A stretch of DNA of 64,000 nucleotides from Clostridia bacterium (GTDB lineage: Bacteria; Bacillota; Clostridia; Christensenellales; UMGS416). The position numbers were made by a program, and so were the translations under genes. Within the stretch, counting starts at the first letter, position 1, and each line of letters starts with the position of its first letter. Shown piece by piece: positions 49,005 through 57,596 of this stretch. The stretch lies in the NCBI GenBank assembly GCA_016938675.1, contig JAFGUF010000001.1, positions 62,001 through 126,000 on the forward strand, written 5' to 3'. The notes below the pieces were generated by a model. That model made no database searches, was not told the DNA's origin, and saw only the letters and a list, made by a program, of their open reading frames with translations.

Positions 49005-52000
49005 GTGAAGAAAAAGATTCTGATTATGATCATACTTACTGCGCTGCTGACAGCCTTTGTGCTGCCTGCGCCTGTTGCGTATGCCTCTGATTATAGTTAT
49101 ATCAAGGTTAAGCTTGCCTCTATGGGCAGCGTAAGCAGCGTAAATATTAAAATTGACGGTTCATATTATATAAAGGAAAGCCCATATTACCCTCTAGTAA
49201 GAGGAAAAAGCTACGTGATTAAAACTTCAGGTACAGGCATATCCATAAGCGACGGAAGCACGACAACATACCTAGGAGTTACAGCGACATTTATAAGGAC
49301 GCAGGATTCATCCGATACTAACTGGATGATAATAAATAATCCGTCTTATGGCATGGTCAATTATCCTGCTGACGTCAAGTTCATACGAAATGGTAGCTAT
49401 ATTGATACCATATGCACACTATTTATGGAGACATATCTTGTAGGCGTAGTAGGGCATGAGATGAGCCCTTCTTGGCCTATAGAGGCCTTGAAGGCGCAGG
49501 CGGTAGCAGCCAGGACATATGCAATGCGGTATATAAGCGCCTCTAACACCTATGATGTAGTAGATACTACAACCCATCAGGTATATAAGGGCTACACTCC
49601 TGACAGAGATGAAAGGGTTGTTGAGGCGGTATACGCGACCGCAGGCGAGGCTCTGCTATGGGGCACAACTTTTGCAGACGGTGTTTATTCAGCCAGCAAC
49701 GGCGGGCAGACCATGACAAGAGTTCCGAAGTGGGGTACAGTTAACTATTATCACGAGCTTAAGGACGACCCTTACGACAAAAAGAACCCTGCCAGCCCGA
49801 AATTTGAGTTCTTTTTCCCAAAAGTAATAACAACAACAAACAAATTAGACAGCAGAATGGATCTGATGATTAGAAACCTTGCGTCTTCAAAACTGAAGGC
49901 TCAGGGTGTAAATGTTGATGCATCTAATATTACTATAACTGGCATTAACTCTGTAGTGCCGCATACTTTGCCTGCAGCTACTTCATACGGAGACTATCCT
50001 GCTGGATCGTATCAGTATACAAAGATTGATGTAAGTGCGGTAATTGATTATTCAGGAAGTGCAGTAATACCGGTAGGCGATACTCCGAGCCTTGAATTTA
50101 TTACAACTGGAGTTGTAAGCCTGCTTTCATCCACACGAATGAGGATACGAAGCGGGCCATCAACCAGCTATTCAATCGCTGGATATGTAGACAATGGCGA
50201 AACTCTTGATGTATACGACATTAGAGATGATGATTGGCTTGCCATAAAATATGGTGATATATCAGGCTATGTAATGAAGGTTTACGTTGAAATGGCACCC
50301 TATGATGAACCTGAAGAGACGCCGGAAGAGATAAGCATACCGGGAGTAATAACTGGGACAATTGAAGAGTATACATCAGTCTACAGTGAAGCCTCTGTGG
50401 ATTCCAGTGTTGATGACGCGTTGACAGGAACGGCAGAGGTAACGATAATTGAGTATATAGATGCGGAAACTGACTGGCTTAAGATAACATACGGCGACAA
50501 AACAGGCTATGTTCTTGAAGAGAAAGTTGATTACGACAAAAGCCTTCTAGACAATGACGACAGCCCTACAGCAAGCGGACAAGCGATTACTGTAACGCTG
50601 GATTACTCAACTTTACAAGAGAAATTCGCCTCAAGTTCATCGTACCTAAAATATCACAGCATACTAAGCGTAAGTGAATCACCCAGCGGGGAACAGATAA
50701 TACTGGCTGCCAGCAGGTATGGCCACGGAATAGGGATGTCCCAGCGCGGTGCACAACAGATGGCATATGAAGGATGGACATATACTGAGATTCTGGGCTT
50801 CTACTACAACGGAACAATATTAACAGACTTTGCAATCACTGAGAATGCATTGCCTTCGGCTATCGAAAAGCCTCTTGTCAGTGCGCATACAACAACTGAT
50901 AATGTTAATGTGCGAAAAGGCCCTTCCACCAGTTATTCAGTAGTTGCTTCTATTGACAAAAATGTCGAGATTTATGTAATTTCCGTTGACAGCTGGTGCA
51001 ACGTATACATACCGTCTCTTAAGATATCCGGTTATATGTCTAAAGATTATCTGAATTTAGAATACGATTCTACTGATGTGGTATTAAAATATGCAGATGT
51101 TGTTTATCACGAAGGAATATATAAGGTTACAGCAACATCACTGAATTTAAGGACTGCGCCAGTAATATCAAACAATATAATATCCGAAATGCCAAAGGAT
51201 ACACAGGTAAAGAGGCTGGATTCTGACGGCAGCTGGCTAAAAATTATAGATACAAGCAATAACATCGGATGGTGCTCGGCTGACTACCTGACAAAAATCG
51301 GGGATGCAGTAGCTGAACCGACTCCGACAGCTGAACCGACACCCAGCCCAGAGCCAACGGAATCGGCTGATCCTACAGAATCAGTTGAGCCTACGGCATC
51401 AGTTGAACCAACGAATTCAGCAGCACCTACGGACACTACGGCTCCTACTGAATCTGCAACAGCATCGCCGTCACCTTCGCCATCGCCGTCTGCTTCGCCG
51501 ACTCAGTCGCCCACATCTACTGTTTCGCCATCTCCATCGCCGTCAGCGAGCGAGGAGCCAAGTGATTCTCCGGAACCAACGCAGTCACCTGCGCCTACTG
51601 AATCGCCGGAACCAACGGGAGACACGGGGGCAGACGATGAACTAACTGGAACTGTAAACACTGACGGCAGCTCTCTTCTGAGAATAAGAAATGCCGCTTC
51701 AGTCAATGCTTCCATTGTAGGCTATGTACCTCATGGTACTGTGATTACAATTCTTGAGGACAGAGACGACGGCTGGCTGTATATTAACTACGAAACAAAG
51801 CTGGGATACGTAATAGATGATTATGTAATATTCGACGGCGTCAAAGAGGACGAAACAGGTGACAGCCTGGAGGACGATGACTCCGAAGACAGTGCCGTAA
51901 TTACAGGAACAATAAAGCTCGAAGTTTCGGCAAATCTTAGAATAAGAAGCCAGGCTAACACAACATCATCAATATTAGGATATGTGCCAAACGGCGCGCA

Positions 52001-52502
52001 GATAAAGGTTTTGGAAAAGCTGTCATCAGGGTGGCTGAAAATGGAATACGGTGGACTGTCCGGTTATGTACATGGCGATTACGTTGCATTGAGCGCCTCT
52101 GGCGGCGCTGTAGGCACGATTGTAGACTGTTCCTACCTGAGTGTTAGAACTGGCAGCAATACCAGCTACACGAGGATAGGCGCGGTAAAGGCAGGCACAC
52201 AGCACCAGCTGCTTGGCGAGAAAGACGGATGGTATAAAATATTATTCGAGGGAAAAGAGGGCTGGATAAGCGGAAAGTATGTATCCGTTGAAAACGGAGG
52301 CTTTACGGAACTTGAAAAGACAGGAGTTACAACTGCAACTTCACTGAGGGTAAGGTCCGGGCCAGGGCTCACTTATGAGCAAATCGGGTCACTTACACTG
52401 AACTCATCCGTTACAATAAAAGGTGAAGAAAACGGTTTTTATAAAATTGATTATAAAGGTACAGCGGCATACATCTCTAAGGCTTATGTCGACTTAAATT
52501 AA
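49005..52502 (+). CDS. SpoIID/LytB-domain cell-wall protein with eight SH3-like domains
   Basis: 1165 residues, secreted (signal peptide to about residue 27, ending VAYAS). The SpoIID/LytB lytic-transglycosylase region starts near 140 (LVGVVGHEMSPSWPIEALKAQAVAARTYA, Glu about 150) and its closing motif GHGIGMSQRGAQQMAYEGWTYTEIL is near 572. Two SH3-like domains (about 373-430 and 446-505) lie between these halves. Two more follow (628-685, 705-763), then a Pro/Thr/Ser/Glu-rich linker (about 767-878) and four more SH3-like domains to the C terminus. The start is GTG. Likely role: binding and cleaving glycan strands in the wall. The next gene also encodes a wall protein. Confidence 0.88.
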   Translation: MKKKILIMIILTALLTAFVLPAPVAYASDYSYIKVKLASMGSVSSVNIKIDGSYYIKESPYYPLVRGKSYVIKTSGTGISISDGSTTTYLGVTATFIRTQDSSDTNWMIINNPSYGMVNYPADVKFIRNGSYIDTICTLFMETYLVGVVGHEMSPSWPIEALKAQAVAARTYAMRYISASNTYDVVDTTTHQVYKGYTPDRDERVVEAVYATAGEALLWGTTFADGVYSASNGGQTMTRVPKWGTVNYYHELKDDPYDKKNPASPKFEFFFPKVITTTNKLDSRMDLMIRNLASSKLKAQGVNVDASNITITGINSVVPHTLPAATSYGDYPAGSYQYTKIDVSAVIDYSGSAVIPVGDTPSLEFITTGVVSLLSSTRMRIRSGPSTSYSIAGYVDNGETLDVYDIRDDDWLAIKYGDISGYVMKVYVEMAPYDEPEETPEEISIPGVITGTIEEYTSVYSEASVDSSVDDALTGTAEVTIIEYIDAETDWLKITYGDKTGYVLEEKVDYDKSLLDNDDSPTASGQAITVTLDYSTLQEKFASSSSYLKYHSILSVSESPSGEQIILAASRYGHGIGMSQRGAQQMAYEGWTYTEILGFYYNGTILTDFAITENALPSAIEKPLVSAHTTTDNVNVRKGPSTSYSVVASIDKNVEIYVISVDSWCNVYIPSLKISGYMSKDYLNLEYDSTDVVLKYADVVYHEGIYKVTATSLNLRTAPVISNNIISEMPKDTQVKRLDSDGSWLKIIDTSNNIGWCSADYLTKIGDAVAEPTPTAEPTPSPEPTESADPTESVEPTASVEPTNSAAPTDTTAPTESATASPSPSPSPSASPTQSPTSTVSPSPSPSASEEPSDSPEPTQSPAPTESPEPTGDTGADDELTGTVNTDGSSLLRIRNAASVNASIVGYVPHGTVITILEDRDDGWLYINYETKLGYVIDDYVIFDGVKEDETGDSLEDDDSEDSAVITGTIKLEVSANLRIRSQANTTSSILGYVPNGAQIKVLEKLSSGWLKMEYGGLSGYVHGDYVALSASGGAVGTIVDCSYLSVRTGSNTSYTRIGAVKAGTQHQLLGEKDGWYKILFEGKEGWISGKYVSVENGGFTELEKTGVTTATSLRVRSGPGLTYEQIGSLTLNSSVTIKGEENGFYKIDYKGTAAYISKAYVDLN

Positions 52503-52527
52503 CGATTTAAATAATTTGGTGAAAAAA

Positions 52528-53751
52528 ATGAGAAAAAGAATAATAAGAAATACGGTTATAGTTGCTGTTTTATTATTATATATTTTTAGCGCTGCTGTCA
52601 GCGCAAGCGGAGGTTCCCTCTTAAAAAGAGGCGACACTTCAGAGAACGTAAAATTGCTGCAGCAGCTGCTGCAGGAAAAAGGATACTATACGTATTCAGA
52701 AATAACAGGATATTACGGAGTAATAACCGAGGATGCAGTAAAAGCTTTTCAAGCAGCAAAGGGGCTTAGAGTGGACGGGATAACAGGGCCGGCCACATGG
52801 GCTGCTCTCCTTGCGCAGAGTGAGGATGCATCAACGTCTGAAGTAACTGTTGATTCAATTCATTCAATAGGCATGGAATGTGCGGATGTAGCATTAATTC
52901 AGACTAGGCTAAAAGAACTTGGTTTTTACAATTATGATTATATTACTGGGTATTTCGGAACGATCACTCAAAACGCGGTTAAAGCATTTCAAAGATCCAG
53001 CTCGATTGAGGTAACCGGAGCTGTTGATGAGAAGACATGGGATATGCTTTTCTCTGAATACCTGCCTGTATCTCTTTCAAGCGGCACTTTTGGGGATCAG
53101 GTTGTTCCGCTACAGCAAAGGCTTACTGAGCTTGGATATTATTCATTTGCCGCAGACGGCATCTATGGCCCGAAAACAAAGGAAGCCGTTGTGTATTTTC
53201 AAAAAGTATCCGGACTGACTGCTAATGGAATTGCCGACGAAGAGACAATTGAGTTACTATTTTCAGATGCCGCCATCTATGAGCAGGATGCGCGCAGAAT
53301 GATAACAACAAATGTAACGATATATTCACAAGCTGCTACAAGGCCTAAGGGCGACGATATTGTTATTATAGCAAAGCAGTATTTGGGAACGCCATATGTT
53401 TACGGAGGTCAGGGGCCTGATGCATTTGATGCTGATGGCTTTATAAAGTATGTTTACGATCTGGCAGGCGTTACGGTATCTAATTCGCTGCTCAGCCAGT
53501 ATCAGGATAATTTCGGAATTAAAATATACAACAGGGATGACCTTCTTCCCGGTGACTTGGTATTCTTTGATACAATGCTTACAGACGGCAGCCTTACTGA
53601 CCACGTAGGCATATATATAGGTGATGGGAACTTTATTCACGTAGATGACAGGCTGGGCAAGAACTCGGTAGTCATTGACTCGCTGACAAAAAGCTCCGGA
53701 TGGTATGCTGCGCGATTTACATGGGCAAGGCGGATTATTGACCAGAATTAG
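52528..53751 (+). CDS. Peptidoglycan-binding protein with NlpC/P60-like domain lacking the catalytic Cys
   Basis: About 407 residues. A signal peptide (to about residue 24) precedes three PG_binding_1 repeats (about 32-95, 112-175 and 187-245), each of the form LQ..L...GYY....GYYG..T..AV..FQ. A C-terminal NlpC/P60-like domain (about 280-407) follows. Its normal FDCSG catalytic motif reads AFDADGF, so the nucleophilic Cys is Ala; the His motif DHVGIYIGDG is kept. The start is uncertain among TTG 52516, GTG 52519 and ATG 52528. Thirteen to 25 bases separate it from the SpoIID gene, so they are probably co-expressed. Confidence 0.85.
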   Translation: MRKRIIRNTVIVAVLLLYIFSAAVSASGGSLLKRGDTSENVKLLQQLLQEKGYYTYSEITGYYGVITEDAVKAFQAAKGLRVDGITGPATWAALLAQSEDASTSEVTVDSIHSIGMECADVALIQTRLKELGFYNYDYITGYFGTITQNAVKAFQRSSSIEVTGAVDEKTWDMLFSEYLPVSLSSGTFGDQVVPLQQRLTELGYYSFAADGIYGPKTKEAVVYFQKVSGLTANGIADEETIELLFSDAAIYEQDARRMITTNVTIYSQAATRPKGDDIVIIAKQYLGTPYVYGGQGPDAFDADGFIKYVYDLAGVTVSNSLLSQYQDNFGIKIYNRDDLLPGDLVFFDTMLTDGSLTDHVGIYIGDGNFIHVDDRLGKNSVVIDSLTKSSGWYAARFTWARRIIDQN

Positions 53752-57035: not shown

Positions 57036-57063
57036 AAAAAAGCATCCATATGGATGCTTTTTT
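57036..57063 (-). terminator. Terminator of the six-tRNA operon (minus strand)
   Basis: AAAAAAGCATCC pairs with GGATGCTTTTTT across ATA-T. The stem abuts the CCA of tRNA-Leu. Confidence 0.9.
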
Positions 57064-57150
57064 GGTGCCGGAGGCCGGAATCGAACCGGCACGGCTTATT
57101 CGGCCGAGGGATTTTAAGTCCCTTGCGTCTACCTGTTCCGCCACTTCGGC
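57063..57150 (-). tRNA. tRNA-Leu (UAA)
   Basis: Class II tRNA with a long variable arm. Anticodon loop CTTAAAA (UAA). CCA encoded. One A-C mismatch in the acceptor stem (GCCGAAG with CTCCGGC). Confidence 0.95.
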
Positions 57151-57159
57151 ACATTTTAA

Positions 57160-57233
57160 TGGAGGCGCCAACCAGAATTGAACTGGTGATGAGGATGTTG
57201 CAGACCCTTGCCTTACCGCTTGGCTATGGCGCC
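57160..57233 (-). tRNA. tRNA-Cys (GCA)
   Basis: Anticodon loop CTGCAAC (GCA). Discriminator base U73, the cysteine identity element. CCA encoded. Confidence 0.96.
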
Positions 57234-57239
57234 ATATTT

Positions 57240-57315
57240 TGGAGCGGAAAACGGGACTCGAACCCGCGACCTTCGCCATGGCAAGGCGACGCTCTACCAA
57301 TTGAGCTATTCCCGC
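57240..57315 (-). tRNA. tRNA-Gly (GCC), copy 2
   Basis: Identical over all 76 bases to the copy at 4142-4217, in opposite orientation. Confidence 0.97.
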
Positions 57316-57328
57316 GTATAGATTATTT

Positions 57329-57405
57329 TGGTGCCTCAGGACAGAATCGAACTGTCGACACAGGGATTTTCAGTCCCTTGCTCTACCGACTGAGCTACCG
57401 AGGCA
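57329..57405 (-). tRNA. tRNA-Phe (GAA)
   Basis: Acceptor TGCCTCG with TGAGGCA. Anticodon loop gives GAA (CTGAAAA). CCA encoded. Confidence 0.96.
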
Positions 57406-57407
57406 AG

Positions 57408-57484
57408 TGGCGACCCGGAAGGGGCTCGAACCCTCGACCTCCAGCGTGACAGGCTGGCATTCTAACCATCTGAACTACCGGGCC
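57408..57484 (-). tRNA. tRNA-Asp (GUC)
   Basis: Anticodon loop CTGTCAC (GUC). G73 discriminator, CCA encoded. Confidence 0.96.
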
Positions 57485-57519
57485 AAAGTGGCCAATAAAG
57501 ATAATGCAGAGAGTAATAT

Positions 57520-57596
57520 TGGTGGGAACAGTTGGGCTCGAACCAACGACCCCCTGCTTGTAAGGCAGGTGCTCTCCCAGCTGAGCTATGCTCCCA
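57520..57596 (-). tRNA. tRNA-Val (UAC)
   Basis: Anticodon loop CTTACAA (UAC). CCA encoded. First gene of the six-tRNA operon (Val-Asp-Phe-Gly-Cys-Leu). Confidence 0.96.

Follow-up and report, generated by a model that had tools for sequence, protein, structure and literature searches.

The gene described here occupies positions 52516-53751 (plus strand) of a 64-kb stretch of DNA from the draft genome of a Clostridia bacterium (2.62 Mb in 45 contigs, 96% complete); the whole of this stretch is referred to below as the window. The gene codes for a 411-amino-acid (aa) protein with an N-terminal hydrophobic stretch (judged by eye, not by a signal predictor), three PG_binding_1 repeats and an NlpC/P60 domain, and in this domain the nucleophile Cys of the family is replaced by Ala. 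On the same strand, the open reading frame (ORF) of a SpoIID/SH3 protein ends 13-25 bases before this pseudo-NlpC/P60 gene, depending on the start codon, and because of this spacing the two are probably partners in an operon. The features under discussion are the following.

49005-52502, plus strand: upstream neighbour, 1165 aa, with a SpoIID domain and eight SH3_3 stretches.
52516-53751, plus strand: gene of the pseudo-NlpC/P60 protein.
52639-53262, plus strand: three PG_binding_1 repeats, residues ~42-98, 119-182 and 187-249, the bounds of the last two being approximate.
53353-53739, plus strand: NlpC/P60 domain, residues ~280-408, from a profile match plus the predicted fold.
53425-53442, plus strand: FDADGF in place of FDC[S/T]GF (TTTGATGCTGATGGCTTT).
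53482-53490, plus strand: two S1-pocket positions, located by an ungapped orthologue alignment, where Asn323 replaces a conserved Arg and Leu325 replaces Ser, Ala or Thr (a small residue).
53602-53604, plus strand: His363, equivalent of the catalytic His, kept (His in 94 of the 94 other domains).
53638-53640, plus strand: His375, equivalent of the third polar residue, kept (His in 71 of the 94 other domains).

The 411-aa ORF has three candidate start codons, TTG at 52516, GTG at 52519 and ATG at 52528, and residues are numbered from TTG 52516; no clear ribosome-binding site was seen before the ORF on inspection by eye. A profile search matched PG_binding_1 to three stretches (192.9 bits summed), the best being residues 42-98, and the bounds of repeats 2 and 3 were judged from the ranges of sequence-search matches. 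PF00877 matched residues 291-392 with 67.9 bits against a curated cut-off of 23, which places the domain within the NlpC/P60 family.

Codon 53431-53433 is GCT and encodes Ala306 at the position of the nucleophile Cys, and the adjoining codon 53434-53436 is GAT and encodes Asp307 at the Ser/Thr position. The domain contains no Cys. A first-pass annotation of this DNA had allowed that a nearby Cys might fill the active site; the sole Cys of the protein lies in the second repeat, at residue 122, and hence outside the domain. Relatives were gathered by tblastn and profile search, with only the best 30 and 28 matches of two larger searches being fetched. The fetched loci gave 98 distinct domains, one of them gapped at the motif. 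Cys stands at the nucleophile position in 96 of the other 97, and among these best matches the window alone has Ala. Cys was likewise found at the motif in 53 of 53 loci from a species-genome collection that may omit the genome of the window and those closest to it. For counts by column, domains shorter than 85 residues were excluded, so that 95 remained, i.e., the window's own and 94 others. The window domain keeps 15 of the 18 columns that are conserved at 85% or more in those 94, and retains Tyr294, Asp305, His363 and His375. The three broken columns are Cys (94/94 others) to Ala306, Ser/Thr (91 + 3 of 94) to Asp307, and Arg (83/94) to Asn323. At a fourth changed position, Leu325, 92 of the others are ungapped, and 89 of these have Ser, Ala or Thr. 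Since Cys fills the motif column in all 94 related domains, the Ala is not a matter of chance, and we take it that the placing of all three losses within the active site, rather than their number, is the telling point.

The orthologue alignment is gap-free across the S1 stretch, where the orthologues have PR-x-A and the window protein has SN-S-L. In a phmmer alignment to 7cfl there is a gap nearby, and the Arg comes to stand opposite Leu325, not Asn323; under both alignments the window protein is without the Arg. The roles of these positions are known from two relatives. In YkfC with bound L-Ala-γ-D-Glu, the α-carboxylate of γ-D-Glu is gripped by two residues, the Ser that matches Asp307 and the one at the small position (Leu325); the Arg takes part, as does the conserved Asp, in a hydrogen-bond network (PMC2954226). 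In CdCwlT33800, activity fell to 1.4% in C242A and to none in C242S, and to 8% in S243F, 11% in S243L and 9.8% in R259A; the tabulated mutants include no Ser-to-Asp exchange (PMC12542765). The window protein has therefore changed at the catalytic residue and in the S1 pocket alike. Compared with an active C40 peptidase, it has the catalytic His and the third polar residue and lacks the Cys of DC[S/T]G; of the residue set that holds γ-D-Glu in S1 (Tyr, Asp, Ser, Arg and a small residue), only Tyr294 and Asp305 are kept. Asp307 would place a negative charge at the site of the substrate carboxylate.

The structure of residues 256-411 was predicted with a 28-row alignment; alignment A2 used 27 of the 53 species-collection loci, locus L075 being omitted because its translation holds a stop. 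The model has a mean pLDDT (predicted local distance difference test score) of 81.9 and a pTM (predicted template modelling score) of 0.79, with 18 residues, the first ones, below 50 and 13 more below 70. The best solved fold was 7cfl by both Foldseek and VIA-align 2 (Z 21.6, root-mean-square deviation (rmsd) 1.5, 126 residues aligned), and YkfC (3h41; Z 19.5) and RipD (4jxb; Z 16.6, rmsd 1.7, 114 aligned) were matched as well. The predicted fold is thus that of NlpC/P60, and the protein combines a family fold, as predicted, with loss of the nucleophile, as non-catalytic NlpC/P60 proteins do. The first-pass annotation had reported the change from FDCSG to FDADG with its GCT codon, the retained downstream His and fold, the three peptidoglycan-binding repeats and the adjoining SpoIID/SH3 protein, and all of these were borne out; the changes at Asp307 and at two further pocket positions go beyond it. 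Its proposal of a pseudo-peptidase is likewise upheld by the Cys-free domain, the predicted family fold and the inactivity of published Cys mutants (PMC12542765), which give good support to the view that peptidase activity is absent.

Orthologues with an intact motif were found in three genomes, all of them with PG_binding repeats and an NlpC/P60 domain as in the window protein. In G002, which belongs to the same family and another genus, a contig runs out behind the SpoIID/SH3 gene, after an initial part of the orthologue; the remainder, which carries FDCTGF, opens another contig. We infer that the two pieces (L117:2-907 and L144:2-388) are one gene; the assembly break probably lies between repeats 1 and 2. 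In G004, of the same family, the motif is also FDCTGF, and the contig ends upstream of the orthologue. In G018, of the same order and another family, the orthologue has FDCSGF and an SH3 ORF lies directly upstream; a SpoIID/SH3 gene runs off the end of a different contig, and the gene order is probably as in the window. Orthology to G002 was assigned because of the shared gene order, not from tree placement. Since every other domain examined keeps the Cys, including the G002 orthologue behind SpoIID, the loss of the nucleophile is, among the genomes compared, specific to this lineage.

The DNA pattern of FDADGF gave 39 matches in 37 of 396 genomes of the order, and a reversed-pattern control gave 14. 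None of the 38 other matches fell inside an NlpC/P60 domain: with filters off, the best of the 38 frames scored 5.6 bits (E 0.025). These matches outside the window were taken as chance. A scan of viral contigs, sensitive to close relatives only, gave no match to the pseudo-NlpC/P60 gene, and distant relatives were present in 174 of 50,697 phage records at E ≤ 1e-5, all below 60% identity; nothing in either points to a phage origin. The genome's other NlpC/P60 domain lies in a 630-aa frame on contig 42 (L129:4857-6695); its FDCSGF is intact, and two PG-binding-like repeats can be made out by eye ahead of the domain; therefore one member of the family with an intact motif remains in the genome. 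By eye, this protein also has hydrophobic stretches near residues 20-50 and 215, before its PG-binding repeats, and may be membrane-anchored.

The explanation that we favour, with somewhat better than even confidence, is that of a lineage-specific pseudo-endopeptidase that is attached to the wall by its repeats and acts without cutting. The ancestral gene would have followed directly on that of a SpoIID/SH3 protein and would have coded for an NlpC/P60 enzyme whose active site was complete; this enzyme, judging by the family, was most likely a γ-D-Glu-diamino-acid endopeptidase. The lineage would then have lost the nucleophile together with the residues that recognise γ-D-Glu in S1, while keeping the fold, the three peptidoglycan-binding repeats and the N-terminal hydrophobic stretch, a probable export signal. 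Once exported, the protein would be tethered to the wall by its PG_binding_1 repeats and could there act as a non-cutting scaffold, or as a competitor, by which the SpoIID-type partner or some other hydrolase is positioned or held in check. This working mode, wall attachment with a scaffolding or restraining role beside a SpoIID-type protein, is the likeliest one, and we hold it to be fairly probable. The first-pass annotation had also suggested that the protein may bind wall peptides or regulate another hydrolase. Ordinary binding of stem peptides in the old active site is doubtful, because the residues that hold γ-D-Glu are replaced too, and wall binding more likely rests on the repeats.

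Several points weigh against this reading. The contacts in the pocket are deduced from homologous positions, not from model coordinates, and loss of the Ser is by itself indecisive, S243A of CdCwlT33800 retaining 46% of activity (PMC12542765). Ten other domains also break three to five conserved columns (the mean is 1.1), a count made irrespective of where the breaks lie. Wall binding is suggested only by the repeats, and regulation of another hydrolase by adjacency to the SpoIID/SH3 gene. Furthermore, the genus is represented by one genome, and the gene could be decaying. Finally, the NlpC domain may be evolving faster here than in G002 and G004, a pattern as compatible with relaxed constraint as with a new function.

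The last two points are central to the main rival, which we regard as unlikely on balance yet as the most serious one: a decaying or near-neutral remnant. Here the endopeptidase would have become dispensable and its active site would have eroded under relaxed selection, so that the protein now does no more at the wall than bind passively. In FastTree trees the window branch was 0.79 for the NlpC domain (0.34 for G002 and 0.30 for G004) and 0.70 for repeats 2 and 3 (0.34 and 0.32, respectively), whereas the SpoIID domain of the neighbour showed little excess (0.33 versus 0.27 for G002). Relative-rate tests reached p<0.05, uncorrected, in 4 of 8 comparisons for the NlpC domain, 1 of 8 for the repeats and 0 of 6 for SpoIID, with one of the NlpC tests opposite in direction. 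The pseudo-NlpC/P60 gene may thus have undergone a modest acceleration, which does not separate relaxed constraint from new function. In a tree of 51 domains the window domain fell outside the group with G002, G004, G390, G018 and others, and had the fifth-longest tip (0.67 versus a median of 0.24); it stood beside G002 plus G004 in a smaller NlpC tree, and the window stood beside G002 in the repeat trees. We read this disagreement among tree shapes as long-branch noise. Against simple decay, the ORF is intact across its 411 codons, and a remnant would have to have kept the 15 conserved columns and confined its three losses to the active site.

A stronger form of adaptation appears rather unlikely to us. 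In this case the replacement of the nucleophile and of the Ser, Arg and small residue of S1 would have been coordinated, producing an acidic, His-containing site for a metal or for a cationic or amidated wall peptide, in a dedicated regulator of the SpoIID-type enzyme. It is less likely still that the domain is an altered hydrolase, in which another residue, or a metal at Asp305, Asp307, His363 and His375, attacks a different bond in the wall. Two Asp and two His do converge at homologous active-site positions, and the substitutions resemble replacement rather than loss; however, the domain is without Cys. No precedent for such a change is known to us, and none was searched for. With the Cys-to-Ser exchange at the equivalent site also inactive in the relative CdCwlT33800 (PMC12542765), Ser or Asp as a substitute nucleophile was set aside. 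As for an ordinary active enzyme disguised by a sequencing or assembly error, which the first-pass annotation had paired with the presence of Cys in relatives, the relatives do have the Cys, but an error is very improbable, because turning the FDADGF DNA into any sequence coding for FDC[S/T]G takes at least 4 substitutions, or three edits, across two adjoining codons with the frame intact, and two more pocket positions are changed as well.

The SpoIID/SH3 protein has, by eye, a long linker rich in Pro, Thr, Ser and Glu. It keeps the Glu of a VVGHEM stretch, Glu in 11 of 11 aligned rows and a candidate catalytic residue. A second SpoIID-domain protein of ~960 aa is encoded on contig 26 (L150:4326-7208), with 41% identity to the SpoIID domain of the window over 318 residues. 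SpoIIP was not found in the genome, which is weak evidence of absence in a draft that is 96% complete, and a reading of the neighbour as a sporulation engulfment machine was dropped. Elsewhere in the window, six tRNA genes (Leu, Cys, Gly, Phe, Asp and Val) lie at 57063-57595 on the minus strand, and the small ORFs overlapping them are mechanical. Promoter-like sites numbered 21 against 14.2 (standard deviation (sd) 4.1) in shuffled sequences, and terminator-like sites 1 against 3.6 (sd 1.8); no claim is built on either count.

The nearest named precedent is RipD (Rv1566c) of M. tuberculosis, described as a non-catalytic, peptidoglycan-binding NlpC/P60 protein whose triad is given as Ala83-Ser132-Glu144, although a statement in the same source that the Cys is changed to serine disagrees with this (PMC12067865). 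RipD shares with the window protein the fold and the Ala at the nucleophile position, and is reported to retain peptidoglycan binding (PMC12067865). It differs in having lost the His as well, whereas the window protein keeps His363, and in carrying C-terminal pentapeptide repeats instead of PG_binding_1 repeats; the window protein scored 29.6 bits with the RipD subfamily model NF033743 (NCBIfam), far below the cut-off of 215. The closest solved relative, both by sequence (phmmer E 9.3e-26) and by fold, is the catalytic domain of the Clostridioides difficile autolysin Acd24020 (7cfl), which has FDCSGF where the window protein has FDADGF. YkfC of Bacillus cereus (3h41), whose structure defines the roles of the compared positions, has the NlpC/P60 fold in common; unlike the window protein it is catalytically active, carries two SH3b domains and is specific for substrates whose N-terminal L-Ala is free (PMC2954226).

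Full-text literature searching turned up RipD as the one named dead NlpC/P60 protein, and others may be in print; in an older survey, ~1% of 2599 NlpC/P60 sequences were without the Cys/His dyad (PMC2954226). Dead NlpC/P60 enzymes are therefore already known, if uncommon, and the window protein is not a new kind of system. It does offer a clean contrast: in the gene pair that here holds the dead form, orthologues keep an intact motif. Hence, one can ask directly how a wall endopeptidase serves its SpoIID partner other than by cutting, and the gene pair is a useful natural experiment.
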